From assembly GCF_008085915.1 (NCBI RefSeq), contig NZ_VSJK01000011.1, forward strand, positions 62,001 to 126,000: DNA of 64,000 nt. Reading direction: 5' to 3'. Below the pieces are notes generated by a model, which ran no database searches, was not told where the DNA came from, and was given only the letters and a program-made list of their open reading frames with translations. Position 1 is the stretch's first letter. Each line of letters starts with the position of its first letter. The position numbers were made by a program, and so were the translations under genes. The DNA is from Oceaniovalibus sp. ACAM 378 (lineage in GTDB: Bacteria; Pseudomonadota; Alphaproteobacteria; Rhodobacterales; Rhodobacteraceae). This document shows, in pieces, positions 7,448-62,940 of this stretch.

Positions 7448-7526
7448 GAATGTCTCCACATTGTCTTCATCAGTGTTCTGTGGAAACAACTTATCGCAAG
7501 CACTCAGGTTCCTTATATAAAAGTAT

Positions 7527-7538
7527 ATTGTGTGCAAT
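7527..7538. promoter_or_regulatory. Probable MarR/OhrR operator
   Basis: ATTG-TGTG-CAAT is a perfect inverted repeat of ATTG and CAAT half-sites in the intergenic region between the aldehyde dehydrogenase and the MarR-type gene, embedded in an AT-rich stretch (TATATAAAAGTATATTG). Its place between divergent genes suggests binding by the neighbouring regulator. A related AAAGTATATTT stretch occurs near 8135, upstream of the amidase gene. Confidence 0.5.
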
Positions 7539-7631
7539 GGTTGTCTCGTGCCAATCGTCTGCTACTCACGGATTTTCCAGTTTCAGTGGAAATGATTTGG
7601 AATTGAGCGCACGACACAAGAGGTGACCAAG

Positions 7632-8108
7632 GTGACAACGAACGCGGATGCGACGAACGACCTTGCGCTGGAGATGCAGCTTTGTTTTCCACTCTACGCG
7701 GCGTCAAACCTTATTGCCCGGCTTTACCGACCAGTGCTTAAACCGCTCGGGCTGACCTATCCGCAATATCTCGTGATGCTGGTACTTTGGGAAAGTTCAC
7801 CTCAGAGCATCGGTGGGCTCGGCGAGAAACTTCACCTCGACAGCGGGACGCTGACGCCCCTCATCAAGCGGCTTGTGGCGGGCGACCTTGTCAGCCGCAA
7901 TCGCGATCCGTCCGATGATCGGCGCGTTCTGGTCTCGCTGACGGAAAAGGGGCGTGCGCTCCGGACAGAAGCGGCACGCGTGCCACAATCCCTTGTGGAT
8001 GGCTTGGCGATCACGACGGGGGAACTTGAGCATCTGCGCGGCGAGGTGCAGAACCTCGTGCGGATCCTGACGGCTTCGGATGCAAGGACAGCGGCAGACA
8101 ATCGATAG
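7632..8108 (+). CDS. ohrR: MarR-family regulator, OhrR-like
   Basis: This winged-helix repressor of about 158 residues matches OhrR, the organic-peroxide sensor. The N-terminal EMQLCFPLYAASNLIARLYR holds the redox-sensing cysteine at the usual place, followed by LGLTYPQYLVMLVLWE, the recognition region LHLDSGTLTPLIKRL and the wing DDRRVLVSLTEKGR. GTG at 7632 is favoured because AGAGGTGA lies five bases upstream; an in-frame GTG at 7623 is the alternative. No ohr peroxidase is adjacent; the divergent neighbours are an aldehyde dehydrogenase and a flavoprotein, so it may instead sense electrophiles or aldehydes. The symbol names the subfamily, not a proven target. Confidence 0.85.
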   Translation: MTTNADATNDLALEMQLCFPLYAASNLIARLYRPVLKPLGLTYPQYLVMLVLWESSPQSIGGLGEKLHLDSGTLTPLIKRLVAGDLVSRNRDPSDDRRVLVSLTEKGRALRTEAARVPQSLVDGLAITTGELEHLRGEVQNLVRILTASDARTAADNR

Positions 8109-8351
8109 CACGAGACCACCATGACACCCCTAAAGTATATTTATCAGCATCCGGCTGTCTGCGGGTGGCCGAGAAGGCCAGGTACGAGCCGATTGAACAA
8201 CGCAGTCGTGCCACCCAGATTGCACAATCACCGGGATATGCTAGCAAGTCGAAGGAAGATTAACGCCTGAACGGATTTGTCTCATGGTCGCGGACCAACA
8301 GGCGAACAGGTCAGGGGCACAGCCCAGAGTGGCGACGAAGGAGGAACTCTC

Positions 8352-9269
8352 TTGAAAGATGCACTGCGCTTCGAGCCGCTCGCTTGGTCAAACGTTCTCA
8401 CCGAGATGCCAGCCGCGCTCCGTATCGCGAGTGGTGACATTGTCATCACCGAGACATTGGATGCTGCCGGGGTGAATGCGCGTGGCGAGAAAAAGGCGGA
8501 TCGTCCAAACCCGATGAACGGGCCAATTTTCGTTGAAGGCGCAGAACCCGGTGACGCTCTGCGGGTCGAGATCCTGAAAATTGATCCGGCGCGTGACACC
8601 GGCTGGACCAGTGCCGCACTCTCGGCAAATGTTCTGGACCCGGAATATGCGCGCAACCTGCCACCCCGTGACCACGTCGAGTGGATCATTGATCGCCAGG
8701 CATCCACCGTAAAGCTTGAGAAGCCGCTGCCGGGGCTGGAAAATCTGATACTGCCCTATGCGCCGATGATCGGCTGCTTCGGCGTTGCCCCTTCGGGTGG
8801 ACAGGCGATCTCGACGGCTTCCAGCAGCAACAACGGCGGCAATATGGATTACCGAGGCTTCACCGTAGGATGTAGTGTGAGCTTTCCGGTCTCTGTGCCC
8901 GGCGCATTGTTTTTCCTTGGTGATTGTCATGCGGCACAGGGCGATGGCGAGATTGCCGGAACTGGTGTGGAAACCTGCTGCAATGTAGAAGTCCGACTGA
9001 CAGTAGAAAAGGGTCGCACGATCAGATGGCCACGTGGCGAAACCCAGGACCGCATCTTTACCGTCGGAAATGCCCGCCCCCTCGATCAGGCGCTCCAACA
9101 TGCGACGACCGAAATGGTGATGTGGCTAAAATCCGACTACGGGCTGTCAGATGCAGCCACTGCGCATCTGCTCGGGCAGGCTGTCCGCTATGAAGTGGGC
9201 AATGTCTTCAATCCAGCATATACGATGGTCTGCAGCGTAGCGAAAAAATGGCTGCCACCAAAGCTCTAA
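8352..9269 (+). CDS. Acetamidase/formamidase family protein
   Basis: The protein belongs to the FmdA/AmdA family of amidases that hydrolyse short-chain amides to ammonia and a carboxylate. Seen are NPMNGPIFVEGAEPGDALRV, the metal-region motif MIGCFGVAPSGG, the glycine/asparagine-rich NNGGNMDYRG and FLGDCHAAQGDGEIAGTGVE, all typical of the family. A TTG start at 8352 is preferred because AAGGAGG stands seven bases upstream, giving 305 residues, normal for the family; the frame is open upstream to 8277. It follows the OhrR-like gene in the same direction after about 240 bases that hold no other gene. The physiological amide is unknown. Confidence 0.85.
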   Translation: MKDALRFEPLAWSNVLTEMPAALRIASGDIVITETLDAAGVNARGEKKADRPNPMNGPIFVEGAEPGDALRVEILKIDPARDTGWTSAALSANVLDPEYARNLPPRDHVEWIIDRQASTVKLEKPLPGLENLILPYAPMIGCFGVAPSGGQAISTASSSNNGGNMDYRGFTVGCSVSFPVSVPGALFFLGDCHAAQGDGEIAGTGVETCCNVEVRLTVEKGRTIRWPRGETQDRIFTVGNARPLDQALQHATTEMVMWLKSDYGLSDAATAHLLGQAVRYEVGNVFNPAYTMVCSVAKKWLPPKL

Positions 9270-9390
9270 TCGCCAGTGTTGCCCACCTGACGTAGGATTC
9301 TCTCAACACCGGTGCCGGAACTTCGTCCCCCCCCGATCGTTCTTCTTCCAAACGGGACAGACTGTCCCAATCGGATAGGAGGAAAGAACC

Positions 9391-9687
9391 ATGGACACTA
9401 ATGCACCTACACCGCTGCGCCCGGAAGAACTGAGCGCGGACCTGATCGAAGGTGTAAATGTCTGCGGCCCGGATGACACTGATATCGGAACCATAGCACA
9501 TCTGCATGGTCAGGGATCAACGGCTCAGGTGATTATCGATGTCGGTGGGTTTCTTGGTCTGGGCGCCAAGCATATAGCCCTGCCGCTCGCCAGCGTGAAC
9601 TTCCTGCGTGATTACGGCGGCAAAATCCACGCCACCACAGAAGTAACCAAGGATCAGCTGGAAGAACTGCCCGAGCACAGCCATTAA
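9391..9687 (+). CDS. PRC-barrel domain protein
   Basis: This small protein of 98 residues has a PRC-barrel fold: ADLIEGVNVCGPDDTDIGTI, then the central AQVIIDVGGFLGLGAKHIAL with the VGGFLGLG motif typical of stand-alone alphaproteobacterial PRC-barrel proteins. A strong AGGAGGAAAG precedes the ATG. There is no signal peptide. Such proteins are often found with stress-related genes, but their function is mostly unknown; none is proposed here. Confidence 0.85.
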   Translation: MDTNAPTPLRPEELSADLIEGVNVCGPDDTDIGTIAHLHGQGSTAQVIIDVGGFLGLGAKHIALPLASVNFLRDYGGKIHATTEVTKDQLEELPEHSH

Positions 9688-9870
9688 ACCGCAAGCTCCA
9701 TTCGCGGATCTGGCGCGGCATATAGATGTGCCGCGCCCTCGTGTAAGGTCGAGATTTTCCAAATCCTCCGCCAAGGCCCTTGCGGTTCATGAATCCGTCC
9801 CGAGCCCTGCACTCCGGATGGTAAAAGTGCATGGACCGTCTATCGAAACTTTGCACCCTCCGCCGAAAGG

Positions 9871-12057
9871 TCAGAGATGAGCAATTATCTTATCCAAAGT
9901 CGCGGGATAATCACGCACCCGTACGTTGGTGGCGTTGAAGATGGCGTTGGTGATTGCCGCCGCGGCGCCGCAGATGCCCAGCTCGCCAACACCCTTGGCC
10001 TGTAACGGGCTGGCCCAGTCATCCCTTTCCTCCAAAAATTCGACCTCGATCTGCGGCACGTCAGCATTCACCGCCAGATGGTATTCGGCCAGGTCATGGT
10101 TGACGATGTGCCCGTCGCGCGGATCGTGGACCAGCTCTTCGGTCAGCGCCATGCCGACGCCGAAGGTCATGCCGCCCAGAAATTGTGACCGCGCGGTCTT
10201 GGCGTTCAGGATGCGTCCGGCGGAAAACACGCCCAGCATCCTGCGAACCCGGGTTTCGCCGGTCACCGCGCTGACGGCGACCTCGGCGAAATAGGCGCCA
10301 AAGGTGGCTTGGCGAACAGCCTCAGACGTCGCGCCGGGTTCGATGTGCCCCTCAGCGGTCAGGCTGTCGCCATCCAGAATATCCGACAGGGATTGAACAC
10401 GGTTGTCGAACACGGCCTGACCGTCCTTCAACGTCATGTCGGCCTCTGCACAATCCAGCCTTTGCGCAAGCTGGCTGCGCAGGTTTTCGCATGCCAGAAA
10501 CACCGACGTCCCGCTGGACGCCGCGCCCCAGGATCCGCCCGAGCCGGCGGCGGACGGAAAATCAGTATCACCCAGCGACGTCGACACCTGATTTACCGGC
10601 AGCCCCAGCATTTCGGCGGCGATCTGGGTCAGGATCGCATAGGTGCCGGTGCCGATGTCGGTCATATCGGTTTCAACGACAGCGCGGCCATCGGGGTTCA
10701 GCGTGACGCGCGCCTTTGATTCCATCAGCGCGTTGACCCGGGCAGCCGAGGCCATACCGATCCCGATCAGCCATTCACCTTCTCGCCGGGTACCGGGCGC
10801 CCTGCGCTCCGACCATCCAAAGCGCTCGGCGCCGCGGTCCAATGCCTCGGCAAAGCGGCGCGACGAAAACGGTTTGCCGGTTTCGGGATCTCTGTCAGGA
10901 ATGTTGCGTTTGCGCAGCTCGACCGGGTCGATGCCCGCTACATGGGCCAATTCGTCCATGGCGTTTTCCAGTACCGTCACTCCGACCGCCTCGCCCGGGG
11001 CGCGGACAGATCCGGCGCAGGTGCGGTGGACGCGGGCGATGTGATGGCCGATCTCGCGGTTGTCGCCCGCGTACAGAAAACGGGTGGCCTGTGTGACAGG
11101 TTCGGAAAATGACTCGTCTGGCAGGTTCGAGACCCAGGCATCGTGGCCGATGCCGGTCAACTGACCGCCTTCGTCAAGCGACAGGCGCACCCGCTGGCGG
11201 GTCTCAGACCGGCGCATCGTCGTCTCGAACACTTGCTGGCGCGTCAGCGCCACGGCGACCGGACGCCCCAGCTTTTGCGCGGCGATGGCTGCGGCCACCG
11301 CCTCGGGCGCGATGCCCAGCTTCGCGCCGAAACCGCCCCCGACATAGGGCGACAGAATTCGGACGTTTTCGGGCGAAACGCCCAGGCTATCTGCCAACTC
11401 GTTGCGGTTGTACTTCAGCATCTGGTAACTGCCTCTGAGGGTCAGCATGTCGCCATCCCACATCGCAATCGCGGCGTGGGGCTCCATCGCCGCGCTGCTG
11501 TGGGCAGGCGTGCGATAGGTCACGTCGACGCTGTGCGCGGCATTGGCCATGGCGGCGGCCAGGTTGCCCTGACTGTGCTGCTTACCTTTCGGGGTCTCCA
11601 GAACGGCAGTCTCAGGGTCGGTCACGGCCATGTCGTCGACATCAATGATCAGGCCCAGACGTTGCGCCCCATGGCGGGCCTGCTCGAACGTCTCGGCCAC
11701 CACGAGGGCGACGGGCTGCCCGACATAGGCGGCGATGTCGGTTCCTTGCACCGGCGCGGCGTCGGCGGTACCTTGGGCCGGATTGCGCAAGAGGCGTTCG
11801 TCAGTGATCACAGCCAGCACGCCCGGCATCGCGAGCACGACTTCAGCGTCGCTCCTGATCACGGGGCCGATGCCCGAGGCGCGGGCTAGCACGCCATGGC
11901 ACATTCCGGCGACCTGCCATTCATGGGCATAGGTGGCAGTGCCTGTCACCTTAAGTGGCCCCTCAGGACGATCCAGCGGTTGGCCGATCACACCTTGGGC
12001 CATATGGTCCAGCCTGTGGCGGTGGTCAGGCTTGTCCATCTTCAGGTGTGCGGTCAT
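9871..12057 (-). CDS. paoC: Aldehyde oxidoreductase, molybdenum-binding subunit (PaoC-like)
   Basis: This is the large catalytic subunit (728 residues) of a xanthine-oxidase-family enzyme holding the molybdopterin cofactor. Motifs include the N-terminal [20 protein letters not shown], the [16 protein letters not shown] region, [26 protein letters not shown] and the catalytic glutamate in [15 protein letters not shown] near the C-terminus. The start at 12057 is set by the ATGA overlap with the FAD subunit gene and by family alignment. The three genes form a paoABC-type operon (periplasmic aldehyde oxidoreductase in E. coli), but the iron-sulfur subunit here has no Tat signal, so this version is probably cytoplasmic. 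The likely role is oxidation of aromatic or aliphatic aldehydes. Confidence 0.88.
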
Positions 12058-40012: not shown

Positions 40013-41335
40013 ATGTTAGGAATCGGTTTGAGCATTCCACTGTCGATTTATCTGACAGCAACCAATCTTGTCGCACCGCTTTGGCGTATTTCCCTGCGCC
40101 GGCGCGCTCGCCGCGGTAAAGAAGACCCTGACCGTTTGAATGAAAGATTGGGACGAGCGTCTAAAGCGCGCCCGTCGGGACCGATGATTTGGTTTCATGC
40201 GTTGGGAATCGGCGAAGCCATGGCGGTTCTGTCGCTGATCGAGGCTTTGCGGCAAGAAAGGCCGGAGCTTTCCTTCCTCCTGACCACCAACACCCGCACC
40301 GGTGCAGATGGTCTGGCGCGCATCGGTTTGCCGATGGGTGTTATCCATCAGTATGCGCCAATCGACAGCAAGGCGGCCGTCACTGCGTTTCTGGATCATT
40401 GGCGTCCCGATGCCTTTGTGTTGGCCGAGTTAGACCTGTGGCCGCGGATGCTGCATGCTCTGGCCTCACGAGCGGTGCCGATGGCCATGGTAAACGCCCG
40501 CCTGACCGACAGGCGATTTAAGGGAAGGATGCGCTTGCGCGGGCTTTTCGCACCGTTGTTCCCGTTGTTTCGCACAATTCTGGTGCAGGATCAGATCTCG
40601 GCTACACGGATGGTATGTCTTGGCGCACACGAAGATCAAGTCACAGTAGCGGGCCTTTTGAAAGCTGCCGCCGATCCTTTGCCAGCCGATGAGACCACGT
40701 TGGCGGCTCTTCGCCACGCAATCGGAGCACGGCCTGTCTGGCTTGCCGCCGCGACCGAAGAACGCGAGCATGAGCCAGTCCTGCGCGCCCACGCCTTGGC
40801 GCGCAATGCGATCCCTGACCTTCTTCTGGTCCTCGCACCCCGGCAGCTGACCGCTGCTGATAGCGCCGCCCGCGCCATTGAAACTGCCTTCGACTCAACG
40901 CTGTCCCGGCGCAGCCTTGGGGAACTTCCCGGTGCGAAAGACGCGGTTTTCCTGGCGGATAGTATAGGTGAGATGGGGCTTTGGTATCGTGTGGCGCCTA
41001 TATCGTTTGTCGGCCATTCACTGAATGTGCCGGGCGACCCACCCTTGCCGGGCAAAAACCCTTTTGAGGCGGCTCTTTTGCGCTCGGTCGTGCTACACGG
41101 TCCCTCAACCGGTGATTTTGCCGAAAGTTACTCCGCTTTGGTGGAAGCAGGGGCTTCGGTGCCAATAGAGGACGAGGCTGACCTTGCCCGCGAGGTGGTG
41201 CGCCTGCATTCGAATGAGCTTGAATGTACAAACCGGAATGATGCCGCCGAAAAGGTGATTGGTTCGGCGCGCGCGGCGTTGCCTGTTACACTTGAAGCAA
41301 TTCTCAAACTGATGCGTCTCAAGGCAAAGTCTTAA
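40013..41335 (+). CDS. waaA: Kdo transferase WaaA
   Basis: WaaA (KdtA) transfers Kdo from CMP-Kdo to lipid A precursor. The 440-residue protein has IWFHALGIGEAMAVLSLIEA, LLTTNTRTGADGLA, the ELDLWPRMLHAL acidic motif, AMVNARLTDRRFKGRMRLRG and the C-terminal FVGHSLNVPGDPPLPGKNPF. Family members often read E-x-E-x-W-P; here the second acidic residue is Asp (AELDLWP). No clear ribosome site is seen before the ATG. It follows kdsB after 244 bases with no other gene. Confidence 0.9.
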   Translation: MLGIGLSIPLSIYLTATNLVAPLWRISLRRRARRGKEDPDRLNERLGRASKARPSGPMIWFHALGIGEAMAVLSLIEALRQERPELSFLLTTNTRTGADGLARIGLPMGVIHQYAPIDSKAAVTAFLDHWRPDAFVLAELDLWPRMLHALASRAVPMAMVNARLTDRRFKGRMRLRGLFAPLFPLFRTILVQDQISATRMVCLGAHEDQVTVAGLLKAAADPLPADETTLAALRHAIGARPVWLAAATEEREHEPVLRAHALARNAIPDLLLVLAPRQLTAADSAARAIETAFDSTLSRRSLGELPGAKDAVFLADSIGEMGLWYRVAPISFVGHSLNVPGDPPLPGKNPFEAALLRSVVLHGPSTGDFAESYSALVEAGASVPIEDEADLAREVVRLHSNELECTNRNDAAEKVIGSARAALPVTLEAILKLMRLKAKS

Positions 41336-44195: not shown

Positions 44196-44550
44196 AGGTA
44201 AGCGCCCTTTCTGCTTCCTTTGCGGAGAGTTCGGATCGCAAGGCGTTCGTCAAAGGTTGATCTGCCCTAGTTACCCAGCCGCATCGGATCTTTCCAGAGG
44301 GACCTGCGATTTTGCCCGGGTGGATATGCTTCCGATGCTCATCCGGGAAGTCATAAACGGCGAGCCCGACTGAGCTCCTCCCCGATGTCTGGACAGGTGC
44401 TGACCTCGGACACACCTGGGGCCAATTTCTTCCGGCTTCCTCATGATCAGCCTCAAAGGCGGTCCCTATAGTTATACAACCCGCTCAGCCGAAACCAGCG
44501 CACCAGCCCCCTCAGAACTGACCATCCGACAATGCGCCAACGCGAAAACG
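44196..44550. other. Intergenic region before the peptide operon
   Basis: No gene is convincingly supported. Two overlapping frames (44443-44712, 44558-44740) lack ribosome sites and any recognised motif and cross the predicted promoter at 44551-44579; I treat them as chance frames. Confidence 0.4.
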
Positions 44551-44579
44551 TTGCTGTTTGGTGAAAATTCAGCTATACT
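44551..44579 (+). promoter_or_regulatory. Promoter of the peptide/terpenoid-like operon
   Basis: TTGCTG (44551-44556) and TATACT (44574-44579) are separated by 17 bases, a strong sigma-70 match. Transcription would begin near 44586, leaving a leader of about 140 bases before the small peptide gene. Confidence 0.65.
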
Positions 44580-44726
44580 TTGGTTGGGCGCCGGTATGGA
44601 AAGCCGCCGCTGTTATCGATTCTGCGAGTGCGATTTCAATTCCGGGCCCGAACGGCTCGGGAGATCCGTCGCTATCGTCAATTCGGAGCAGTGCGACGCC
44701 GGGCTCATTTAAAATAGGAGGCCCGC

Positions 44727-44918
44727 ATGTCGTGGATTAGTGGAAATTGTCAAAACGACCGGCACTATTCCTGCACTTATGAAGAAATTAACCCACCAGA
44801 TATTTTTAATCCGGCCCGCTGGTGCGTCGACTCTGACGACCGCTGTTATAGCTTTAATGACGGAGGCGGGCTTATTTCTGCAGTTGATAACTGGGCTCCG
44901 GAAGATGACGGTTGGTAG
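44727..44918 (+). CDS. Small acidic four-cysteine peptide, possible precursor peptide
   Basis: The 63-residue peptide (MSWISGNCQNDRHYSC, later NPARWCVDSDDRCYSF, ending APEDDGW) has cysteines at 8, 16, 33 and 40, many aspartates and aromatics, and no signal peptide. A near-perfect GGAGG lies five bases before the ATG. It is the first gene of an operon with a repeat protein and two isoprenoid-enzyme-like proteins. This is the layout expected for a modified peptide and its maturation enzymes, but no known leader family was recognised. A regulatory or structural small protein remains possible. Confidence 0.6.
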   Translation: MSWISGNCQNDRHYSCTYEEINPPDIFNPARWCVDSDDRCYSFNDGGGLISAVDNWAPEDDGW

Positions 44919-44930
44919 GAGGCACCAATA

Positions 44931-45506
44931 ATGGAACTCGATATTCGAAAGCACCCGGACTATACTGAAGCTCTTGCGCGACTGAAGAAGGTGAAACTTC
45001 GCCCCCTCGTGGCGCCAAGCGAACTTGCCGAGATCGCATTGGTGACAGAAGCTCTACCAGACCTCGATTTTCCGATCAACAGCGCCGGGGAATTGCTCGA
45101 TCAGATTGGAGATGGCAAGCGGCTGTCCATTGTCGGATTCAAGAGTGATCCGGTACGGATGATTAAATACATGCCAGCATACTATTTTCCAATCTCCACT
45201 TACGAGAACTTCGTCGAGAAGATGGCCGAGTTAATCCGCACCAATCGGCGAGACTTCGACACGGACAAGGTCAAGGAGAAGATCAGGGAGAAATCTTGTG
45301 GGATCGACTTTCCGATCAAGGAGCGGGAGGCGCTGATGCGGGCACTGGAAAAGACACCCTCCTTCAACGTGGCAGGCCAAAAGATGGATACCGCCGCTGC
45401 AATCAAAGGACTTCCGGACAGCTTTTTCCCTGTGGAAAATCAGGATGACCTGGAGATAAAGGCGCTCCGCTTGCTGCGACGCCGTCCATTGATTGAAGCG
45501 GATTGA
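44931..45506 (+). CDS. Four-repeat protein of unknown function (FPI repeats)
   Basis: The 191-residue protein starts 12 bases after the small peptide gene (GGTAGGAGG precedes the ATG). It consists of about four imperfect repeats of 39-41 residues, each centred on a phenylalanine-proline-isoleucine/valine core followed by a helix: ALPDLDFPINSAGELLDQIG (core 47-49), MPAYYFPISTYENFVEKMAE (86-88), SCGIDFPIKEREALMRALEK (127-129) and LPDSFFPVENQDDLEIKALR (166-168). No signal peptide or membrane segment. No family was recognised. A scaffold or peptide-binding role is suggested by repeat structure and by position next to the peptide gene; this is inference. Confidence 0.7.
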   Translation: MELDIRKHPDYTEALARLKKVKLRPLVAPSELAEIALVTEALPDLDFPINSAGELLDQIGDGKRLSIVGFKSDPVRMIKYMPAYYFPISTYENFVEKMAELIRTNRRDFDTDKVKEKIREKSCGIDFPIKEREALMRALEKTPSFNVAGQKMDTAAAIKGLPDSFFPVENQDDLEIKALRLLRRRPLIEAD

Positions 45507-45520
45507 CGTCCAAAGCGACA

Positions 45521-46597
45521 ATGTCGTCGGGACACGAGTGGCCGATCGGGCTTTTGCTCGATGAGGTCTGGCTCAGGGCACGTCGTGCTGTGGTGAACTC
45601 CCTCGCGGATGTTGGTCTGTGGCCAGACGCGGCGGAGCAACTGACCTTTACGACAGCGAAAAGGTTGCGCGGCAAGGAGCTGCGCGACAGAGTTTTGCTA
45701 CCCGCTCTGCGTGAAGAGGATCGGCGCTGGATTGTCTCGCCGGCAATATTTGGTGCGTCGAACCGACGTTTCCGCGCAAAGACGCCCTCTGCCCTCGCTT
45801 TCGGTCTGGACATCAGCAAAGGGATGCAAATGATCGCTGGCCGTCCGGTCCGGCAGGACGTTGCCGAAGCCTGCGCTGTCTTCAACTTCGGAATTTCGAT
45901 CTTCGACCTGTTGCACGACACGCAATCCGACCTTGTGGCAGATTTTACGGCGCAGTTCGACCAAAGCGTCCTGTCCCGGCTTAACTCTGATCCGGACTTT
46001 CCCCGCAGGCTGGTCGAGAATTCCGCCGGGAGCGATGTTCCCGAGTTCCGCTTGATTTTGCAGACGATCGCGGCGGTCTATCAGCGCCTTCATGCGCTGG
46101 ATATTGGCCATTTCGATCAGGTCGCAGAACTGCTGGCGGCCGCCTATGATGCAGAGATCAAATCTGCCAGTTTGGCCGCGGGTCAGAGCATCGCGGAATT
46201 GAGACAGACGTCACGGGAGAAGTCGACGCTGCCCTTCGCGATCATCAGCGCCATCGGCGATCCCGACCTCGGGTCGGGCACGCAATCCACCGCACATGGC
46301 CAGATCGTGGACAGCATCGGAAGTATCTTCTGGCGCATAGACGACTTGGCGGACATCGTCAGTGATGCGCGGAGTGAATCGCTTAATTCCCTGCTTGTCG
46401 AGGCGCGCAGGGATGAGAAGGCAGAGATCGCATCGACCCTCACGGGCCTTCTTGAAGGAAGCCGTATCGAGGCGTCAGCACAGGAGGTTCGAGACGCGCT
46501 GCTGCATGTCCGCTCCGTCGTCGATGAATGCGGCGACGGATCCGCGAAAGGCTTTGACAGGGTGCTCGCCTGCTACGTGCGGGCATGGCTGGAATGA
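45521..46597 (+). CDS. Isoprenyl-diphosphate-synthase-like protein, divergent
   Basis: The 358-residue, mostly helical protein has two acidic motifs placed like those of class I isoprenoid enzymes: ISIFDLLHDTQSD near residues 127-137 and SIFWRIDDLADIVSD near 275-290, the second resembling the DDLxDxxxD of polyprenyl synthases. The first lacks the full DDxxD. It also has LTFTTAKRLRGKELRDRVLL, with basic residues as in the substrate-entry region. It may make, bind or use a prenyl diphosphate. ATG 45521 is used; a TTG at 45503 overlapping the previous stop is possible. It overlaps the next gene by 4 to 13 bases. Confidence 0.65.
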   Translation: MSSGHEWPIGLLLDEVWLRARRAVVNSLADVGLWPDAAEQLTFTTAKRLRGKELRDRVLLPALREEDRRWIVSPAIFGASNRRFRAKTPSALAFGLDISKGMQMIAGRPVRQDVAEACAVFNFGISIFDLLHDTQSDLVADFTAQFDQSVLSRLNSDPDFPRRLVENSAGSDVPEFRLILQTIAAVYQRLHALDIGHFDQVAELLAAAYDAEIKSASLAAGQSIAELRQTSREKSTLPFAIISAIGDPDLGSGTQSTAHGQIVDSIGSIFWRIDDLADIVSDARSESLNSLLVEARRDEKAEIASTLTGLLEGSRIEASAQEVRDALLHVRSVVDECGDGSAKGFDRVLACYVRAWLE

Positions 46598-47631
46598 CCC
46601 AGGTCGCTCTGTCCGATATCGATCGATCGATTGCGGCCGCCGCCGGATTCATTGCCGATGCCCGATCCCCTGACGGTCTCTGGCGCGATTTTCATACTCT
46701 GGCGGGCGAAAGCTGCGATTGGGTGTCGAGCTTCGTCGCCTTTAATGTTGGCGATTGCGGCCTTCTACGGGACATCGTCCGAGACACCTTGCCGGCAATC
46801 TTGCGCAGGCAGCGTCCGAGCGGGGGATGGGCCTATAACGAGCGTGTCCCCACGGATTGCGACAGCACAGCGTGGGTCGTATTGGCGCTGACGGCATCGA
46901 CGGTGTGGAAACCATCGCTTGTTCTTCGCGCACTCGCCTTTCTGACCCGGCACAGCACAGATGGTGGTTTCGCCACCTATGCAGCCGAAGATGGGATTGA
47001 AGAATTTATTGGCGCAAGCGCGGACCAGACAGAAGGATGGAGAAGCGATCATCTTTGCGTAACCGCCGTCACAGCACGCGCGTTGCTGCAGAATGGCTTC
47101 AGAAACGATGAGCGGGTCCGCACCGCGATCACCGCACTGACTCACGCTCAAGGCGACGATGGCACATGGCGATCCTACTGGTGGGCTGGCCATGCGTATG
47201 CGACGGCCCAGACACTTCGCGCACTGGCCGCGGCGCGCGCATTACCGGTCGACACTTGGCGGCACGCGACCGAAGGTCTTTTACGCTTGCAGCACGATGA
47301 CGGAGGCTTCGGTGACGATGGAACAGAACCACATGCCTTCGCAACATCGATGTCCTTGACCGCCCTTCTCACGCGTCCGGACCCTGCCTGTGACAAGGCG
47401 ATCGACTACGCTGCGAGTTGGTTGCTAACATCGCAGCGGGGCGGATCGTGGGGCGGGTTCCCGATACTGCGTATCCCTTCACCGATGGCGATTGATGCAA
47501 CTGCGGGAGAATATTCCGTGGACCGGCTTGGAACGGGTGTCACTGTGCGCGACGAAAAGCACATCTTCACGACTGCCGCTTGCTTGGCCGCCTTGACCGA
47601 ATACAGGACGGCAACGCTTGGCAGGAGATAG
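46594..47631 (+). CDS. Squalene-cyclase/prenyltransferase-type toroid protein
   Basis: The 345-residue protein has repeated helix-plus-GGW/GGF units of the prenyltransferase/squalene oxidase class (DARSPDGLWRDF, RQRPSGGWAY, RHSTDGGFATY, AQGDDGTWRSYWW, LQHDDGGFGDDG, SQRGGSWGGF), which fold as an alpha/alpha toroid. A DxDSTA motif (TDCDSTAW, residues 88-93) resembles the proton-donating DxDD of class II terpene cyclases. It is about half the size of squalene-hopene cyclase, so it corresponds to one barrel. ATG 46594 shares ATGA with the preceding stop; ATG 46585 is the alternative. Paired with the class-I-like protein it suggests cyclisation or transfer of an isoprenoid. Confidence 0.75.
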   Translation: MTQVALSDIDRSIAAAAGFIADARSPDGLWRDFHTLAGESCDWVSSFVAFNVGDCGLLRDIVRDTLPAILRRQRPSGGWAYNERVPTDCDSTAWVVLALTASTVWKPSLVLRALAFLTRHSTDGGFATYAAEDGIEEFIGASADQTEGWRSDHLCVTAVTARALLQNGFRNDERVRTAITALTHAQGDDGTWRSYWWAGHAYATAQTLRALAAARALPVDTWRHATEGLLRLQHDDGGFGDDGTEPHAFATSMSLTALLTRPDPACDKAIDYAASWLLTSQRGGSWGGFPILRIPSPMAIDATAGEYSVDRLGTGVTVRDEKHIFTTAACLAALTEYRTATLGRR

Positions 47632-47658
47632 GTGCAGAAATTCGGGATCAAAGAACGG

Positions 47659-47907
47659 ATGTCGCGGGCGAAGATCGTGATTTTCGCGAATCCGCCCACG
47701 AGAGGAAGATCCTACCCCGGTAAATACGCTCAATCGAGCCCGACATTGCTTATCGCAACACCCTTCAGCGGTCCCGACGCTTCAAACCATCCCAAGGTGG
47801 TCTATCGAATCCGGGTGGTCGGACAAAACCTTATAGGTCGTCACGGCTATTCACCTCCGGTTGGTGTGCCGCTGGACGAACATATATCATCTGGCCGCAT
47901 CGCCTGA
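47659..47907 (+). pseudogene. Short ORF, probably a truncated gene end of the operon
   Basis: The frame starts MSRAKIVIFANPPTRGRSYP and continues GKYAQSSPTLLIATPF before losing any protein-like pattern. The start looks like that of cobalamin-binding radical-SAM proteins (K-I-V-x-x-N-P-P followed by a basic loop and P-x-G-L-L), but no radical-SAM cysteine motif follows. It may be a 5' fragment left by deletion at this site, or an unrelated small protein (a GTG start at 47632 is also possible). The match is weak and by eye. Confidence 0.35.
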
Positions 47908-47926
47908 CGGATTTTCCGCAGTCCGT

Positions 47927-48730
47927 TCAGTCGAAGGTGATCTGTTGCTCGGGCGAATAGGCGTGAAACAGTTCCGATATCTCGGAGCATGCGGATTTCT
48001 GCTTGGCGATCAGGGCGTCGAAATCTTCGGTCGCGTTGCGGCGCGAGACGACGACGGTGGTCAGGCAGGCGTCGGCCGCCCCATTTGGCGCGAGGATCGG
48101 GCAGCAGGCATCGGTTACTCCGACAATGTCGCGGCTTTCGTGGACGATGGAGCCTGCCGCCCGCACTTCGCTTAACCTGGCGAAAAGCGGTTCGAGAGGC
48201 TGGGTGCGGGTCGTCGAGGCCAGACATTCAGCGATCATCCGGTCCCGGATATCGGGCTTTTGAAACGCCATCAGCACCAGCCCGGAATGGGAATCCACCA
48301 GCGGACGGCGATATCCGACGCGCAGGGAAAAGTTCATGTCGGACCCACCCGAGCTTGCCACCAGTATCACCGCCTCGCCGCGACTGGGGACAACCAGATG
48401 CACCGCCTGCTGCACCTCTGCTGCAAAGCGTTCAAGCACCGGCGCGGCGACGCCGACCAGATTGCGCACCCGTGTCGTCTGCATCCCAAGGGTGAACAGC
48501 TTGTTGGACAGCGTCAGCTGGTCAGAGGCGGAATCGCGGGTCAGATAGCCGCGCGCCAACAGCACATGCACCATGCGGAAAATCTCGCTTTTCGAGCGTC
48601 CGATCTCGTCCGCCAGATCTTTCATCCCCATCGGTCGCCCATGACGGGCGAGCAATTCAAGGATGTCGAGCCCCTTTTCCAGCGCCGGGGCCGAATAGGT
48701 GCTGCGCGCTGTTTCTGTTGGATCAGTCAT
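47927..48730 (-). CDS. IclR-family transcriptional regulator
   Basis: The 267-residue protein has the N-terminal winged helix (SAPALEKGLDILELLARHGR, then MKDLADEIGRSKSEIFRMVH and VLLARGYLTRD) and the C-terminal effector domain (VHLVVPSRGEAVILVASSGG, VGYRRPLVDSHSGLVLMAF, DACCPILAPNGAADACLTTV). It is divergent from the ABC importer operon and probably controls it in response to a metabolite of the imported compound. Confidence 0.9.
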   Translation of the reverse strand: MTDPTETARSTYSAPALEKGLDILELLARHGRPMGMKDLADEIGRSKSEIFRMVHVLLARGYLTRDSASDQLTLSNKLFTLGMQTTRVRNLVGVAAPVLERFAAEVQQAVHLVVPSRGEAVILVASSGGSDMNFSLRVGYRRPLVDSHSGLVLMAFQKPDIRDRMIAECLASTTRTQPLEPLFARLSEVRAAGSIVHESRDIVGVTDACCPILAPNGAADACLTTVVVSRRNATEDFDALIAKQKSACSEISELFHAYSPEQQITFD

Positions 48731-53875: not shown

Positions 53876-55765
53876 TCAGGTCGCGCGGCGCCTGTCCTCT
53901 TCGGTGACAGTCTCGGGCAGATCATCGAAGCTGCCATAGTTCATGTCGTAAAGTCTGGCATACAGTCCTTTTCGATCCATCAGCGCTTCATGATCGCCCT
54001 GCTCGACCACCTTCCCTTGTTGCAGCACGACGATCCGGTCGGCGTTGCGGATGGTTGCCAGCCTGTGTGCGATCACCAGCCCGGTGCGCCCCTTCAGCAA
54101 GGTCTGCAACGCCTTCTGGATCTGCAACTCGGTATAGCTGTCGATATTCGCCGTCGCTTCGTCCAGCACCAGAATCCGCGCATCCGCCACCAGAGCGCGG
54201 GCAAAGCTGAGCAGCTGGCGCTGCCCGAGACTGAGATTGCCGCCGCGTTCCTCCAGCATTCCGCCATAGCCCCCCGGCAGAGCGGTGACAAAGTCGTGCG
54301 CGCCCACAGCCTTGGTCGCCTCGATCACGTCCTCATCGCTGGCCCAATGCGAGGAATAGCGGATATTCTCCATCACCGTGCCGGTGAACAGGAACGGATC
54401 TTGCAAAACCATCGCGATGTGCCGGCCAAGGCTTGTCTGCGTCACCTCGCGCACGTCGCGCCCGCCAACCATCACGGCGCCGCCCTGCACGTCATAGAAC
54501 CGGTGAATCAGCGACATGCAGCTGGATTTACCCGAGCCGGTGGGCCCGACCAAAGCGACCGTTTCGCCCGATCCGACCGAGAAACTGACGTTCTGCAACA
54601 CCGGATGGTCGGGATCATAGCCAAAGGTCACGTCGCGGAATTCGACCGCGCCGTCATCACCCTGCCCCAGCGCCACGGCGTCCGGTGCGTCCTGCACCGC
54701 AACCTCAACGTCCAGAACCTCGGTCAGGCGATGCCCCGATGCCATGGCCCGCTGCATCACCGAATATTGCATGGTGAGCGAACGGATCGGGTCAAAGAAC
54801 CGTTGGATATAGAACAGGAACGCCACCATCACGCCGATTTCGGTCCGCCCCGAGGCGACCATCGCGCCCCCCGCCACAACAACGGCGGCCATGGCAATTC
54901 CGGTCAGCGTGTCGACCACGGGGATCATCACCTGTGCCATCCGCGCCGAACGCAGATGCTTTTGATAGTTGTCCTGCGCAAGTTCGCCATAAAGCTCGGC
55001 ATTAAGCGCGCCGCGATCCATGCCCTGCACGGTGCGTACCCCGTGGATTGCCTCGGCCAGCGCGCCGTTGGTGATCGAATTGGCCTCATGCGCGGCCATG
55101 AAGGCCACCCGCGCCCGTTTCAGCCATACCACCCGGACGATGAACAGAACCGGCAGCACCATAAGCACCAGCAGCCCCAACTGCCAGTCGAGCCAGAGCA
55201 TCACAAAGACAATCCCGAACAGCAGCAGAACGTCGCCCACCGACAGCACCGAGTTTTCAAGAAACTCCTGCATCGAGTTCACGTCGCCCTGAAGCCGGCT
55301 CATCAGACGACCCACTTCGGTCTTGTCCATGAAGGTCAGCGATACCTGTTGCAGATGGGCGAACATGCTGCGGCGGATATCGAACAGCACGTTTTCGGCC
55401 ATCCGGCCCGTCACGCCCTCTTGCAGGCGCGAGGCCACATAGTTCACCGCGATTACCACGGCAAAGACCACAACGATCAGACCCAGCGTGCCGGGCTTTG
55501 CACCGGGCGCCATTCCGCTGTCGATGGCATAGCGGATCACCAGCGGGATCGACAGTTGCATCGCGGTAAACACCACGACCGAGGCGACCGAGATCGCCAC
55601 CTGCCGCTTGTAGGGACGCACAAAGGCCCAGATCCGGCTGACCACACGACCGTCAAAGGCGCGGCCAAAAATCTCTTCCTCGATACGGTGCGAGCCGACG
55701 ACGGCACGGGCGCGCGGTCTTCCGTCTTCGTGCGGATCGCGCGGTTCGGGGTTGGCGTGGCTCAT
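53876..55765 (-). CDS. ABC exporter half-transporter with canonical catalytic Walker B
   Basis: This MsbA/MDR-type half-transporter (629 residues) has an N-terminal six-helix membrane domain (about 55-340) and a C-terminal ATPase with Walker A VGPTGSGKSSCMSLI, Walker B RILVLDEATANID (catalytic Glu kept) and signature NLSLGQRQLLSFARALV, where the usual LSGGQ is LSLGQ. It overlaps the partner gene by 4 bases. The two form a heterodimer like TM287/288 or BmrCD. Substrate is unknown (lipid or drug export). Confidence 0.92.
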   Translation of the reverse strand: MSHANPEPRDPHEDGRPRARAVVGSHRIEEEIFGRAFDGRVVSRIWAFVRPYKRQVAISVASVVVFTAMQLSIPLVIRYAIDSGMAPGAKPGTLGLIVVVFAVVIAVNYVASRLQEGVTGRMAENVLFDIRRSMFAHLQQVSLTFMDKTEVGRLMSRLQGDVNSMQEFLENSVLSVGDVLLLFGIVFVMLWLDWQLGLLVLMVLPVLFIVRVVWLKRARVAFMAAHEANSITNGALAEAIHGVRTVQGMDRGALNAELYGELAQDNYQKHLRSARMAQVMIPVVDTLTGIAMAAVVVAGGAMVASGRTEIGVMVAFLFYIQRFFDPIRSLTMQYSVMQRAMASGHRLTEVLDVEVAVQDAPDAVALGQGDDGAVEFRDVTFGYDPDHPVLQNVSFSVGSGETVALVGPTGSGKSSCMSLIHRFYDVQGGAVMVGGRDVREVTQTSLGRHIAMVLQDPFLFTGTVMENIRYSSHWASDEDVIEATKAVGAHDFVTALPGGYGGMLEERGGNLSLGQRQLLSFARALVADARILVLDEATANIDSYTELQIQKALQTLLKGRTGLVIAHRLATIRNADRIVVLQQGKVVEQGDHEALMDRKGLYARLYDMNYGSFDDLPETVTEEDRRRAT

Positions 55766-57612
55766 GGTTTCGACTCCGAAATATCCGCATCTGGACGGGT
55801 CTGCAGATCATGCAGCTCACGATAGCGCCCGTTCAGGCTCAGCAGTTCCTCGTGGGTGCCCTGTTCGACGATCCGGCCCTTATCCAGAAACAGGATGCGA
55901 TCGGCGTGCTTCAGGCTGCCCAGACGGTGCGCGACAATCAGCGTCACCCGGTCTTCGGCATAGGCGCGCAGGGCGTTGCGGATCCGGCTTTCGGTGCCCG
56001 CATCGATGGCCGCGGTGGAATCGTCAAAGATCAACACATCCGGTTCCAGCATCAGGGTGCGCGCAATCGACAGCCGCTGCCGTTGTCCACCCGAAAGCGA
56101 CACCCCCCGTTCGCCGACAACAGTGCCATAGCGTTTGGGCAGACCATCAACATAATCGTGCAGTTGCGCCGAGGCGGTGGCATCGCGGATCTGTTCATCC
56201 GAGGCAAAGGGATCACCGTAAGCGACGTTGTTCTCGATCGTCGTGGTGAACAGAAAATCGTCCTGCTGCACCACCGCCACGGACCGCCGTACGGATGACA
56301 GCGTGGCATTGCGGATGTCCTGCCCGTCAATGGAGATCGCCCCCTCGTCCACGTCATAGTAACGCGGAATAAGATGCATCAGCGTGCTCTTTCCTGAACC
56401 GGGCGGTCCGACAATGCCGACGGTTTCGCCCCGCCGCGCCTCAAAGCTGATGCCCGAAACAGCGGGATCGGCGCCGGTATAGCCGAAGCCGACATTCTCA
56501 AGGCGCAATGTGCCCTCGCTCACCTTCAGATCGGTGGCGCCCGGCGCATCGTCAATCTCGACCTCCATGTCGAGAAGGGTGAACAGCCGCGCGCCCGTGG
56601 TCGAGGCACGGGCGAAGGCGTTGACCATCAACCCCAACTGGCGCACCGGCAATTGCAAAAGCGTCATGAACGTCAGGAATGTGGCGAGCGATCCGACAGT
56701 CATCTCTCCTGCCGCCACCTGTTGCCCGCCAACCAGCAGAACCAGCCCCATCGCCGCAAAGAACGCCAGCGTCATCACCGCCGAACTGCGCACCCGGGTG
56801 TCGATCCGGCTGTAACTCAGCGCCAAAGCATCGTCCGAGGCCTTGTCGAACTTTGCCATCTCAAAGTCAGAGGCAGCAAAGGCACGCACCACACGGATCC
56901 CCGCAAGGTTCTCTTCCATCACCTGACTGAGCACGCCCAAGCGTTCCTGCAGTTGCAGCCATGTCCGGCGCAAGGTCAGCTGTGTCACCGAACTGCGCCA
57001 GGCGGCGAAGGGCACAAAGGACAGCGCCAGAAGCCCCAGCACCGGATCGGTCGAGATCAGCAGCCAGGCGCCGATACCGATCAGCAGCACCAGCAGCATT
57101 GTACGCACCAGCGCCGTCGAGAAATACATCCGCACCCCTTCAAGATCGAGCATCCCGACAGTGATCAGATCGCCCGAATGGGTCCGGTCGTGGAACGAGA
57201 ACGGCAGGCGCTGGATCTTGTCATAGATCGCCCGCCGCAGATCATGGGCCAGCGCGTGACCCACCGACTCTGCCGTATAGTTTTGCACAAGGGTGAAAAG
57301 GCCCCGCATCACGCTGACCGCCAAGAGGATCAGTGCGGTTGTCCACAGAACGTCTGATTCCCCCGTGCTGTTCGCCACCGCCTGAGTCTGATCAATCGCG
57401 CGGCCCAACAGCACCGGAATCGACAGCTGTGTCAGCGCCGCGGCGATCGTCGCCAACATCGCCACCGCAAACCGGACCGGATAGCGCAGGGTCATCCGGG
57501 TGATCCGCAGGATGGCATCCTTGCCCTTGTCGGGATCGGTCTCGGCGGTGCGGCGCAGCAGGCGCTCCTGCCCCTGCGGTGTCTGTGTCTGGGCGTGGGA
57601 AGCATCGGTCAT
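55762..57612 (-). CDS. ABC exporter half-transporter with degenerate Walker B
   Basis: The 616-residue partner has the same fold: membrane domain (about 50-330), Walker A VGPPGSGKSTLMHLIP, signature VSLSGGQRQRLSIARTL and Walker B DVLIFDDSTAAID. The catalytic glutamate is replaced by Asp (FDDS), so this half forms the degenerate ATP site, as expected for heterodimeric exporters; the odd LSLGQ signature in the other half completes that same site. The conserved canonical signature here serves the active site. It is the first gene of the pair. Confidence 0.92.
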   Translation of the reverse strand: MTDASHAQTQTPQGQERLLRRTAETDPDKGKDAILRITRMTLRYPVRFAVAMLATIAAALTQLSIPVLLGRAIDQTQAVANSTGESDVLWTTALILLAVSVMRGLFTLVQNYTAESVGHALAHDLRRAIYDKIQRLPFSFHDRTHSGDLITVGMLDLEGVRMYFSTALVRTMLLVLLIGIGAWLLISTDPVLGLLALSFVPFAAWRSSVTQLTLRRTWLQLQERLGVLSQVMEENLAGIRVVRAFAASDFEMAKFDKASDDALALSYSRIDTRVRSSAVMTLAFFAAMGLVLLVGGQQVAAGEMTVGSLATFLTFMTLLQLPVRQLGLMVNAFARASTTGARLFTLLDMEVEIDDAPGATDLKVSEGTLRLENVGFGYTGADPAVSGISFEARRGETVGIVGPPGSGKSTLMHLIPRYYDVDEGAISIDGQDIRNATLSSVRRSVAVVQQDDFLFTTTIENNVAYGDPFASDEQIRDATASAQLHDYVDGLPKRYGTVVGERGVSLSGGQRQRLSIARTLMLEPDVLIFDDSTAAIDAGTESRIRNALRAYAEDRVTLIVAHRLGSLKHADRILFLDKGRIVEQGTHEELLSLNGRYRELHDLQTRPDADISESKP

Positions 57613-61798: not shown

Positions 61799-62049
61799 CA
61801 CCGATACTGGAGCAGAAACCGCGACGCGAAACGGGCGGTATTCCGCGTGCCATCTTGCAGGTATAGAAGGGCGTGATATTTGCGAACGGTCCGGATCTCG
61901 CGCTTTTCTAACAGGGCGATCTGCTGCAAACTGCGATCAATGGTGGAAAAACTGACTTGCGTAACCCGGCCTTGCCGCCATGAATGGCGATGCGACCCCA
62001 TGACCAGACCCTGACACCGGCATACCCATCGCAAGATACGGAGACCGCA

Positions 62050-62940
62050 ATGACGCTGAAGAACCGGATCGAATCCACGATATCTCAGGCTGTCCGGCGC
62101 GGTCAGTCCGGCGCGGTTCCGCCCCGTCTTGCCGCCGCACTGGAATATGCGGTGACGCCCGGTGGTGCGCGGATTCGCCCGACAATCTGTCTTTCGGTGG
62201 CGCTGGCCTGCGGCGATGACCGCCCTGCCCTGTCCAATGCGGCAGCGGCTTCGCTTGAGCTGATTCACTGTGCCAGTCTGGTCCACGACGATCTGCCCTG
62301 TTTTGACGATGCGGCGACGCGCCGGGGCAAACCTTCGGTTCACCGGGCATTCTCCGAATCTCTGGCCGTGCTGACCGGCGACAGCCTGATTGTGATGGGG
62401 TTCGATCTGCTGGCGCGGGCGGCGGGAACCGGCGGTGACGCCGACGGCACATCAGGTGCGGTGCGGGCGGTTGAACTCATTCGCATCCTCGGCGCCTGCA
62501 CCGGAATGCCGGGCGGGATCTGTGCCGGTCAGGGTTGGGAAAGTGAAACCACCATCGATCTTTCGGCCTATCACCGGGCCAAGACCGGCGCGCTGTTCGT
62601 TGCCGCCACAAGGATGGGTGCCGTGGCCGCCGGGCAGGATGGCGAACCGTGGGAGGAGTTGGGCGCGCGTATCGGCGAGGCGTATCAGGTGGCCGACGAT
62701 CTGCGGGACGCGCTTTTCGATGCCAAGACGCTGGGCAAACCCGTGGGTCAGGATGATCTGCACGGACGCCCCAACGCCGTGTCGCAAATGGGCGTACAGG
62801 GCGCCACCCAGCGGTTGAAAGACATCCTTGGCGGCGCCATTGCCAGCATTCCGGCCTGCGAGGGCGAGGCGATGCTGGCCGAGATGGTGCGCCGCACCGC
62901 CGAAGAGCTGACTCCAATGGCGGTGCGCCCCCGAAGCTGA
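62050..62940 (+). CDS. crtE: Polyprenyl (geranylgeranyl) diphosphate synthase, CrtE-like
   Basis: The 296-residue trans-prenyl synthase has both aspartate-rich motifs: SLVHDDLPCFDDAATRRGKP (DDxxxxD) and QVADDLRDALFD (DDxxD), plus GGARIRPTICLSVALACGDD and GALFVAATRMGAVAAGQ. It makes a C15-C20 prenyl diphosphate; the DDLPCFDDA motif with two extra residues fits short-chain bacterial types such as GGPP synthase. The place near hemA and cytochrome c2 suggests a carotenoid/photosynthesis context. Product length cannot be fixed by eye. Confidence 0.82.
   Translation: MTLKNRIESTISQAVRRGQSGAVPPRLAAALEYAVTPGGARIRPTICLSVALACGDDRPALSNAAAASLELIHCASLVHDDLPCFDDAATRRGKPSVHRAFSESLAVLTGDSLIVMGFDLLARAAGTGGDADGTSGAVRAVELIRILGACTGMPGGICAGQGWESETTIDLSAYHRAKTGALFVAATRMGAVAAGQDGEPWEELGARIGEAYQVADDLRDALFDAKTLGKPVGQDDLHGRPNAVSQMGVQGATQRLKDILGGAIASIPACEGEAMLAEMVRRTAEELTPMAVRPRS

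Follow-up and report, generated by a model that had tools for sequence, protein, structure and literature searches.

We describe here a compact operon of four genes, A to D, carried by Oceaniovalibus sp. ACAM 378 in a stretch of 64,000 nucleotides of contig NZ_VSJK01000011.1 (positions 62,001 to 126,000; hereafter, the window, which is part of contig C9 in our numbering, in a genome of 5.36 Mb and 116 contigs). Gene D encodes, with high certainty as judged from its sequence, a monodomain class II terpene cyclase of the MstE kind. The reading of the whole operon that we favour, and to which we give a little better than an even chance, is the terpenylation of a peptide of the ribosomally synthesised and post-translationally modified (RiPP) kind: C would prenylate peptide A, D would cyclise the attached chain and B would assist, i.e., a split and divergent version of a type of system that is already known.

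The operon and its cyclase

The four genes lie head to tail on the + strand between 44727 and 47631 (Table 1), and all four open reading frames (ORFs) are real and tightly packed. Indeed, A and B are separated by a gap of 12 nt, B and C share 4 nt when TTG 45503 is taken as the start of C, and C and D overlap by 13 nt. The compact operon that an earlier note on this DNA had proposed is borne out by this arrangement, and the gene set looks like a translationally coupled operon. The "strong promoter" that the same note had placed at 44551 is not supported: its TTGCTG-17-TATACT carries 8 of the 12 consensus bases and is absent from the list of the promoter scan, which returned, over 44200-48300, 3 promoter-like sites against 1.9 (standard deviation 1.5) in shuffled sequences.

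Searching D against the PDB with phmmer, we found that it is homologous to MstE over nearly its whole length (6sbf, E 1.1e-28, residues 9-337 of D against 21-360 of MstE). Other monodomain entries are also matched nearly full length (8paj, 1.5e-27; 8pak, 4.1e-24; 6ij1, 1.9e-22), whereas the matches to longer cyclases of 514-539 aa (7xq4, 7e-9) and to the classical squalene-hopene cyclase (2sqc, 0.0056) are far weaker. The catalytic motif D91-C-D93-S-T95 is of the DxD[ST]T form, both DCDSTAW and GGW are present, and D91, D93, W199, W200 and Y205 are invariant in the alignment of D with six relatives (seven sequences). The class-II-cyclase-like protein with DxDSTA and GGW that had been read from this gene is thus confirmed and made more precise. 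In a tree of 15 cyclases, D groups with MstE, L037-L042 and L062 (loci of our survey, see below; support 97/94); its branch is long and its nearest partner is not fixed. By sequence, this family comprises cyclases used on already prenylated substrates, and the reaction of D itself is predicted. An ordinary hopanoid enzyme, i.e., a squalene-hopene cyclase, was also considered for D and rejected: besides the weak 2sqc match, this protein of 348 aa scores 40.1 bits with TIGR01507, for a cut-off of 431.1, and reaches about a tenth of the cut-offs of the NCBIfam hopene cyclase models.

Relatives of the cyclase and their neighbours

Two short patterns run against 84,980 species genomes gave 9 confirmed D-type loci, which is a lower bound. 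In seven of them (L038, L040-L045), the cyclase is fused behind about 310-380 N-terminal residues; in the two others (L037, L039), it stands alone and its partner is a separate ORF. Closer to the host, D relatives were found in 1 of 6 genomes of the genus, which is the host's own, and in 10 of 394 genomes of the family, the window itself included; these comprise the single-domain L060, L061 and L062 and six longer frames of 677-1162 aa. At the level of the phylum, 43 of 398 genomes were matched, nearly all of the frames being of 640 aa or more, the size of hopene cyclases, with a single 320-aa frame (L011). Plasmids gave 3 records, among which L005, a monodomain-like protein of Deinococcus, and viral contigs gave none. 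We examined 14 relatives of the monodomain type (L037-L045, L060-L062, L005 and L011), and in 12 of them the cyclase is fused to, or adjoins, a prenyltransferase-like protein; the exceptions are L005, where none was seen, and L011, with a neighbour of no assigned kind.

These partners are not all alike. The ORFs next to the L037 and L039 cyclases share homology with the N-terminal extensions of L040-L042 (1e-6 to 1e-58) and form one group with them; in a second group, the N-terminal extensions of L043-L045 have homologues in the partners at L060 and L061, two loci from the window's family. Both groups look ABBA-like by eye only, with no support from models, and the N-terminal parts of L041, L044 and L045 have no Pfam match. 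The partners of L038 and L062 resemble trans-isoprenyl diphosphate synthases (trans-IDS), the fused part of L038 carrying trans-IDS motifs; a profile built from L038, L049, L050 and L062 reaches octaprenyl diphosphate synthase structures at 5.5e-4. As far as sequence comparison goes, this survey shows that MstE-like cyclases occur with at least three unrelated-looking kinds of prenyltransferase-like partner. The class would thus extend beyond the pair of fused enzymes given in PMC13290415.

In two loci, small peptides complete the picture. L039, from Archangium violaceum, is the best match of D (6e-31), and its row (6965-9624) consists of the cyclase, a 39-aa peptide ending DLISGGAQELSKTQAWE and a prenyltransferase-like gene. 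L062 (G1296:C42:53000-67000) belongs to the window's own family, and its row (5029-10402) holds a radical S-adenosylmethionine (SAM)/SPASM maturase, the cyclase, a trans-IDS-like gene and three peptides. The maturase matches TIGR03974 at E 3.6e-83 (279.9 bits, under the cut-off of 425), and the trans-IDS-like protein, of 241 aa, scores E 4.9e-4 with a profile from which it had been left out, better than all non-member decoys. The three peptides are paralogous, Cys-rich, devoid of Trp and end in GVYGG; the locus also contains a gene judged TPR-like by eye and an Rce1-like protease (PF02517, 38 bits, cut-off 22.4). L062 has the appearance of a RiPP cluster combining radical SAM chemistry with terpenylation, possibly on Cys or Tyr. 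Thus, L039 and L062 bring MstE-like cyclases, prenyltransferases and ribosomal peptides together within a locus.

Other features of these loci were also observed. The 39-aa peptide of L039 has ISGG before its Trp-containing tail. Upstream of prenyltransferase-like and MstE-like cyclase genes, whether fused or split, a glycine-rich protein resembling collagen or PGRS proteins is repeatedly found, including in Pedobacter and Marinovum (Table 1); it could be a terpenylation substrate. On Hymenobacter plasmids (L049, 6947-9274; L050, 7001-9597), a trans-IDS-like prenyltransferase, an M50-type protease and a peptide of 49-51 aa with one Trp read as a small prenylated-peptide cassette; the L049 protease matches the daptide protease model, below its cut-off. 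Four genomes of the family (L064-L067) encode proteins of 1134-1149 aa in which a start resembling flavin adenine dinucleotide enzymes (GAGPVGS, by eye) precedes a class II cyclase match. Lastly, a Halorussus plasmid (L007, 3070-14050) carries ATP-binding cassette (ABC) transporter parts, a class II cyclase-like protein, an MMPL transporter, a polyprenyl synthetase and UbiA.

Proposed peptide terpenylation and the competing readings

In the mechanism that we favour, A would be translated in step with B, since the stop codon of A overlaps the ribosome site of B. C, as a divergent class I prenyltransferase, would take a C15 or C20 isoprenyl group from the cell pool and attach it to A, the likeliest acceptor being the side chain of a Trp (32, 56 or the C-terminal 63) and a less likely one that of a Cys. 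D would then use its DxDST motif to protonate the distal end of the attached chain, which it would fold into fused rings, as do MstE and the cyclase domains of ChrPC and NctPC, while B, at a guess, would use its two MTH865 domains to hold or present the peptide or the greasy product. The genes themselves, the families of B and D, the motif order of C and the neighbours of the D relatives are observed; we infer the reaction of C, A as its substrate, the chain length, the target residue, the role of B, and cleavage and export. The isoprenoid donor could possibly be supplied by the trans-IDS encoded 14 kb downstream, which lies at one of the three places of the genome matched by PF00348 at E up to 10; C is not among these matches. 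The earlier note had suggested that the peptide is lipidated with an isoprenoid. This stands as the best reading, with the family of D behind it and a prenyltransferase-like partner in the 12 relatives counted above, twice with small RiPP-like peptides, whereas C enters it through its motifs and A through inference.

C carries its motifs in class I prenyl-enzyme order (DLLHD at 135, KS at 240, DDLAD at 280), which is the Asp-rich, Lys-Ser, Asp-rich order of the trans-IDS-like Trp prenyltransferases ComQ, PalQ and ChrP. We wrote this order as a pattern (D.[VL].D, 60-130 residues, K[ST], 25-50 residues, DD[ILV].[DE]). Shuffling C 20,000 times produced it 3 times, and it was absent from all 304 reversed ORFs; of 306 ORFs, 10 carry it, namely C itself in five copies, trans-IDS-like enzymes in four entries and one protein annotated as polyprenyl synthetase. 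It is these motifs that suggest an isoprenoid enzyme, and C may work like the ComQ, PalQ and ChrP enzymes. The protein had been called class-I-isoprenoid-enzyme-like; its Asp-rich motifs DLLHD and DDLAD are indeed there, but no significant family match goes with them (none in Pfam or NCBIfam at E up to 10), and its best PDB match is at chance level (E 0.57). Single-sequence structure predictions of B and C reached pLDDT values (predicted local distance difference test) of 38 and 37; the model of C, of very low confidence, is all helix and shows no sign of an ABBA fold.

B matches PF07747 (MTH865) at E 1.2e-10 (41.4 bits, cut-off 25) in two stretches. The four FP[IV] motifs at residues 46, 85, 126 and 165, from which it had been described as an FPI-repeat protein, are present, but they do not form a new repeat: B consists of two copies of MTH865, and it contains no Trp. 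The family was detected in 1 of 149 genomes of the window's family and 1 of 398 of the phylum, both times the host's own genome, and in 0 of 146 genomes of the Archangium phylum. Of 146 genomes from the phylum of Microseira, 3 gave matches, none over the cut-off; two are HlyD-like by eye, and the third, the weak cyanobacterial L046, has an FPI pattern like that of B (BLASTP E 0.018), but the 17 kb searched at this locus contain nothing that the trans-IDS-like profile, A, C or D retrieves below E 0.1. Among 14 control genomes, 3 were matched, all archaea, and no relative of B was found in plasmids or viral contigs. Our literature search returned no paper joining MTH865 with terpenes and a single one that mentions the family; a partner holding the peptide or the product is our guess.

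As for A, it is an acidic peptide (12 D/E, 3 K/R) with Cys at 8, 16, 33 and 40 and Trp at 3, 32, 56 and 63, the last one being C-terminal. It sits beside candidate modifying enzymes, where a putative RiPP precursor would lie, and from this position and by analogy it may be the substrate of C. Its C-terminal Trp fits PalQ, which, according to PMC10853753, requires one. No match to A was found in Pfam, NCBIfam, PADLOC or PHROG, and the 34 plasmid records retrieved with it are at chance level (best E 0.6), mostly lying in doeB of Rhizobium.

Several observations weigh against the terpenylation of A. We composed the motif pattern knowing the sequence of C, and two genuine class I proteins escape it, i.e., the genome's own synthase and the L062 enzyme. 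C has no significant similarity to trans-IDS-like enzymes, and two trans-IDS-like profiles place it at ranks 20 and 23; the positive controls of these profiles gave the L062 enzyme (E 4.9e-4) and did not find the genome's own synthase (ranks 22 and 14). In a search started from C, the first trans-IDS-like enzyme appears at rank 9 (E 1), and hhalign returned a probability of 0.2%, the control pair, at 0.4%, being likewise not significant. Moreover, C has Trp 277 where Gln is invariant in four aligned trans-IDS-like enzymes (L038, L049, L050 and L062), and this Gln, located before the second Asp-rich motif, is tied to Trp recognition in PMC13290415. Lacking both significant similarity and this Gln, C is not to be filed as a member of the ComQ/PalQ/ChrP group. 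No homologue of C was found either: six short patterns gave none in the 84,980-genome collection, plasmids gave none, 1 of 289 genomes of the class was matched (its own), and the 10 genomes or records holding D relatives gave none at E up to 1, in a search without positive control. The same is true of A, which conservation therefore does not back as a substrate, and no relative of B was found beside A-, C- or D-like genes. Furthermore, A has a weak codon signal (0.00 bits per codon, although its own frame is the best of six) and no recognisable leader or cleavage site, and no protease, transporter or recognition domain was seen in the operon, where A to D have no such Pfam or NCBIfam match; the nearest ORFs resembling ABC exporters (by eye) are at 53876-57612.

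A first alternative is that the product of C and D is a small free terpenoid or meroterpenoid, with C as a prenyl synthase or an aromatic prenyltransferase, D cyclising as MstE does, and A and B as regulator or carrier. MstE itself acts on a small prenylated aromatic acid, and it falls in the tree among cyclases with prenyltransferase-like partners, so that the family alone does not fix the substrate; in addition, no peptide was seen adjoining in L037 and most fused loci. We nevertheless hold this reading to be rather unlikely: no aromatic-acid, UbiA or tailoring gene is among the ORFs next to the operon (as read by eye), A is the first gene and is coupled to B, and the cyclases of L039 and L062 are paired with small peptides.

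A second one keeps the peptide as substrate and displaces the target, A being modified on Cys rather than Trp through a thioether prenyl group, in a CaaX-like chemistry, and D cyclising the S-linked chain. The four Cys of A speak for it, and the peptides of L062, Cys-rich and without Trp, next to an Rce1-like gene and in the same family, keep Cys possible as a target in A. We judge it improbable, since all the characterised trans-IDS-like peptide prenyltransferases act on Trp, according to PMC13290415, and A has four Trp, one of them C-terminal as PalQ needs (PMC10853753); the Cys of the L062 peptides may also be explained by the radical SAM maturase. Finally, that A is not a gene, or a mere leader for translational coupling in an operon reduced to B-C-D, would agree with its lack of homologues and its codon score, but is likewise improbable in view of the AGGAGG 5 nt before its ATG (which upholds the four-Cys, 63-residue peptide with a good ribosome site of the earlier note), of its stop codon overlapping the B ribosome site, of its frame being the best of six and of the codon scores of B, C and D, which are low too (0.15, 0.20 and 0.08), so that the weak signal fits foreign DNA.

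Genomic setting and comparison with known systems

Table 1. Positions of the operon genes, their ribosome sites and other features (window positions, except for the survey loci)
Feature	Position	Strand	Basis or remark
Gene A, 63-aa acidic peptide, proposed precursor/substrate	44727..44918	+	ORF, codon frame test
Gene B, 191 aa, two MTH865-like domains, proposed accessory protein	44931..45506	+	Pfam PF07747
Gene C, 364 aa, proposed peptide prenyltransferase	45503..46597	+	Motif order; start TTG 45503 or ATG 45521
Gene D, 348 aa, monodomain class II terpene cyclase (MstE kind)	46585..47631	+	phmmer to PDB, family alignment
Shine-Dalgarno of gene A, AGGAGG	44716..44721	+	Sequence; 5 nt before ATG
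Shine-Dalgarno of gene B, AGGAGG	44917..44922	+	Sequence; 8 nt before ATG; overlaps A stop codon (44916-44918)
Trans-isoprenyl diphosphate synthase	61984..62940	+	PF00348 E 4.6e-46; outside operon, 14 kb downstream
Glycine-rich protein, L011	2-343		
Glycine-rich protein, L043	4889-5794		
Glycine-rich protein, L044	5112-5945		
Glycine-rich protein, L060	7973-8704	-	
Glycine-rich protein, L061	900-2172		

The operon A-D was found in no other genome searched. By leave-one-out codon score, 13 of the 14 host genes of the window are at 0.27-0.52 bits per codon, and the weaker signal of A-D compared with most of them fits foreign DNA. The fourteenth (0.16) is a waaA-like gene beside the operon (40013-41335), one of three in the genome, whose best relatives in the genus are 47% identical; with a codon score as low as that of the operon and this identity, the DNA to the left of the operon may likewise be accessory. 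An empty-site comparison found 0 of 16 other window genes tested in the two same-genus stretches with the best waaA relatives, each of which covers mainly one side of waaA. On the left of the operon are 3-deoxy-D-manno-octulosonic acid (Kdo) and glycosyltransferase genes (named by eye) and on its right a regulator of the IclR kind and a cluster for ectoine-type uptake and breakdown (by eye, doeB being backed by the annotation of relatives); neither flank looks linked to the operon. The ORF that follows D (47632-47907, at the end of the stretch) has no Pfam or NCBIfam match and a codon score not above that of another frame, and is probably not a gene. Anti-phage defence or a phage origin was considered for A-D and rejected, no PADLOC or PHROG match being found.

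Compared with MstE (PDB 6sbb-6sbg), D is homologous over nearly the whole length and has the same Asp motif. The substrate of MstE, a small prenylated aromatic acid, differs from the one proposed here. Likewise, B resembles the MTH865 family, with two matching stretches and the whole protein over the cut-off, whereas the control genomes that match this family are archaeal and no paper found links it to terpenes.

The closest parallels to the favoured terpenylation of A come from enzymes acting on peptide Trp. ComQ/ComX and PalQ/PalX also associate a small peptide with a trans-IDS-like prenyltransferase that targets Trp (PMC10853753); these systems come without a described cyclase, and the Paenibacillus cluster has a histidine kinase, of which none was seen in the operon. 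Lanthipeptide prenylation is the subject of PMC12715784. NctPC joins an ABBA P domain to a C domain resembling MstE (Hubrich et al. 2024, as described in PMC13290415), and the operon shares with it the cyclase family and the two-step logic; C, however, has Asp-rich class I motifs and a helical model, of very low confidence, with no sign of ABBA. The nearest type is that of ChrPC, with a trans-IDS-like P domain fused to a C domain (Hubrich et al. 2024, Chem 10:3224, as described in PMC13290415): a class I-like prenyltransferase, an MstE-like cyclase and a ribosomal peptide are common to both, and, by analogy, a cyclised isoprenoid on a peptide would be the product here. On the other hand, the two enzymes of the operon are separate, overlapping genes, C has no detectable similarity to the trans-IDS-like part of L038 (presumed to be of the ChrPC type) and does not have its Gln, the operon has in addition an MTH865 double-domain protein, and A is unlike any peptide seen in our survey. 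The claim that no characterised system has this composition is thus to be narrowed: a prenyltransferase and an MstE-like cyclase acting on a ribosomal peptide are published (PMC13290415), and what remains is the MTH865 member, of which the literature searched has none.

A bolder reading, possible although we regard it as doubtful, is that C is the first member of a new class I family of peptide prenyltransferases without Gln-based Trp recognition, that the MTH865 double domain is a new substrate-presenting partner and that the product, a four-Cys peptide decorated with a terpene on Trp or Cys, is of an unseen class, horizontally acquired and hitherto seen in one genome. Peptides with cyclised isoprenoids are a very recent class (PMC13290415 cites work from 2024). 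If the terpenylation of A is true, this split and divergent system would give two separately usable enzymes and a different route of peptide recognition, and the MTH865 family would gain its first testable function. In conclusion, enzymes of this kind are already known; it is in its parts list that the operon differs from them, including by a member of the rarely studied MTH865 family, which has not been linked to peptide modification.

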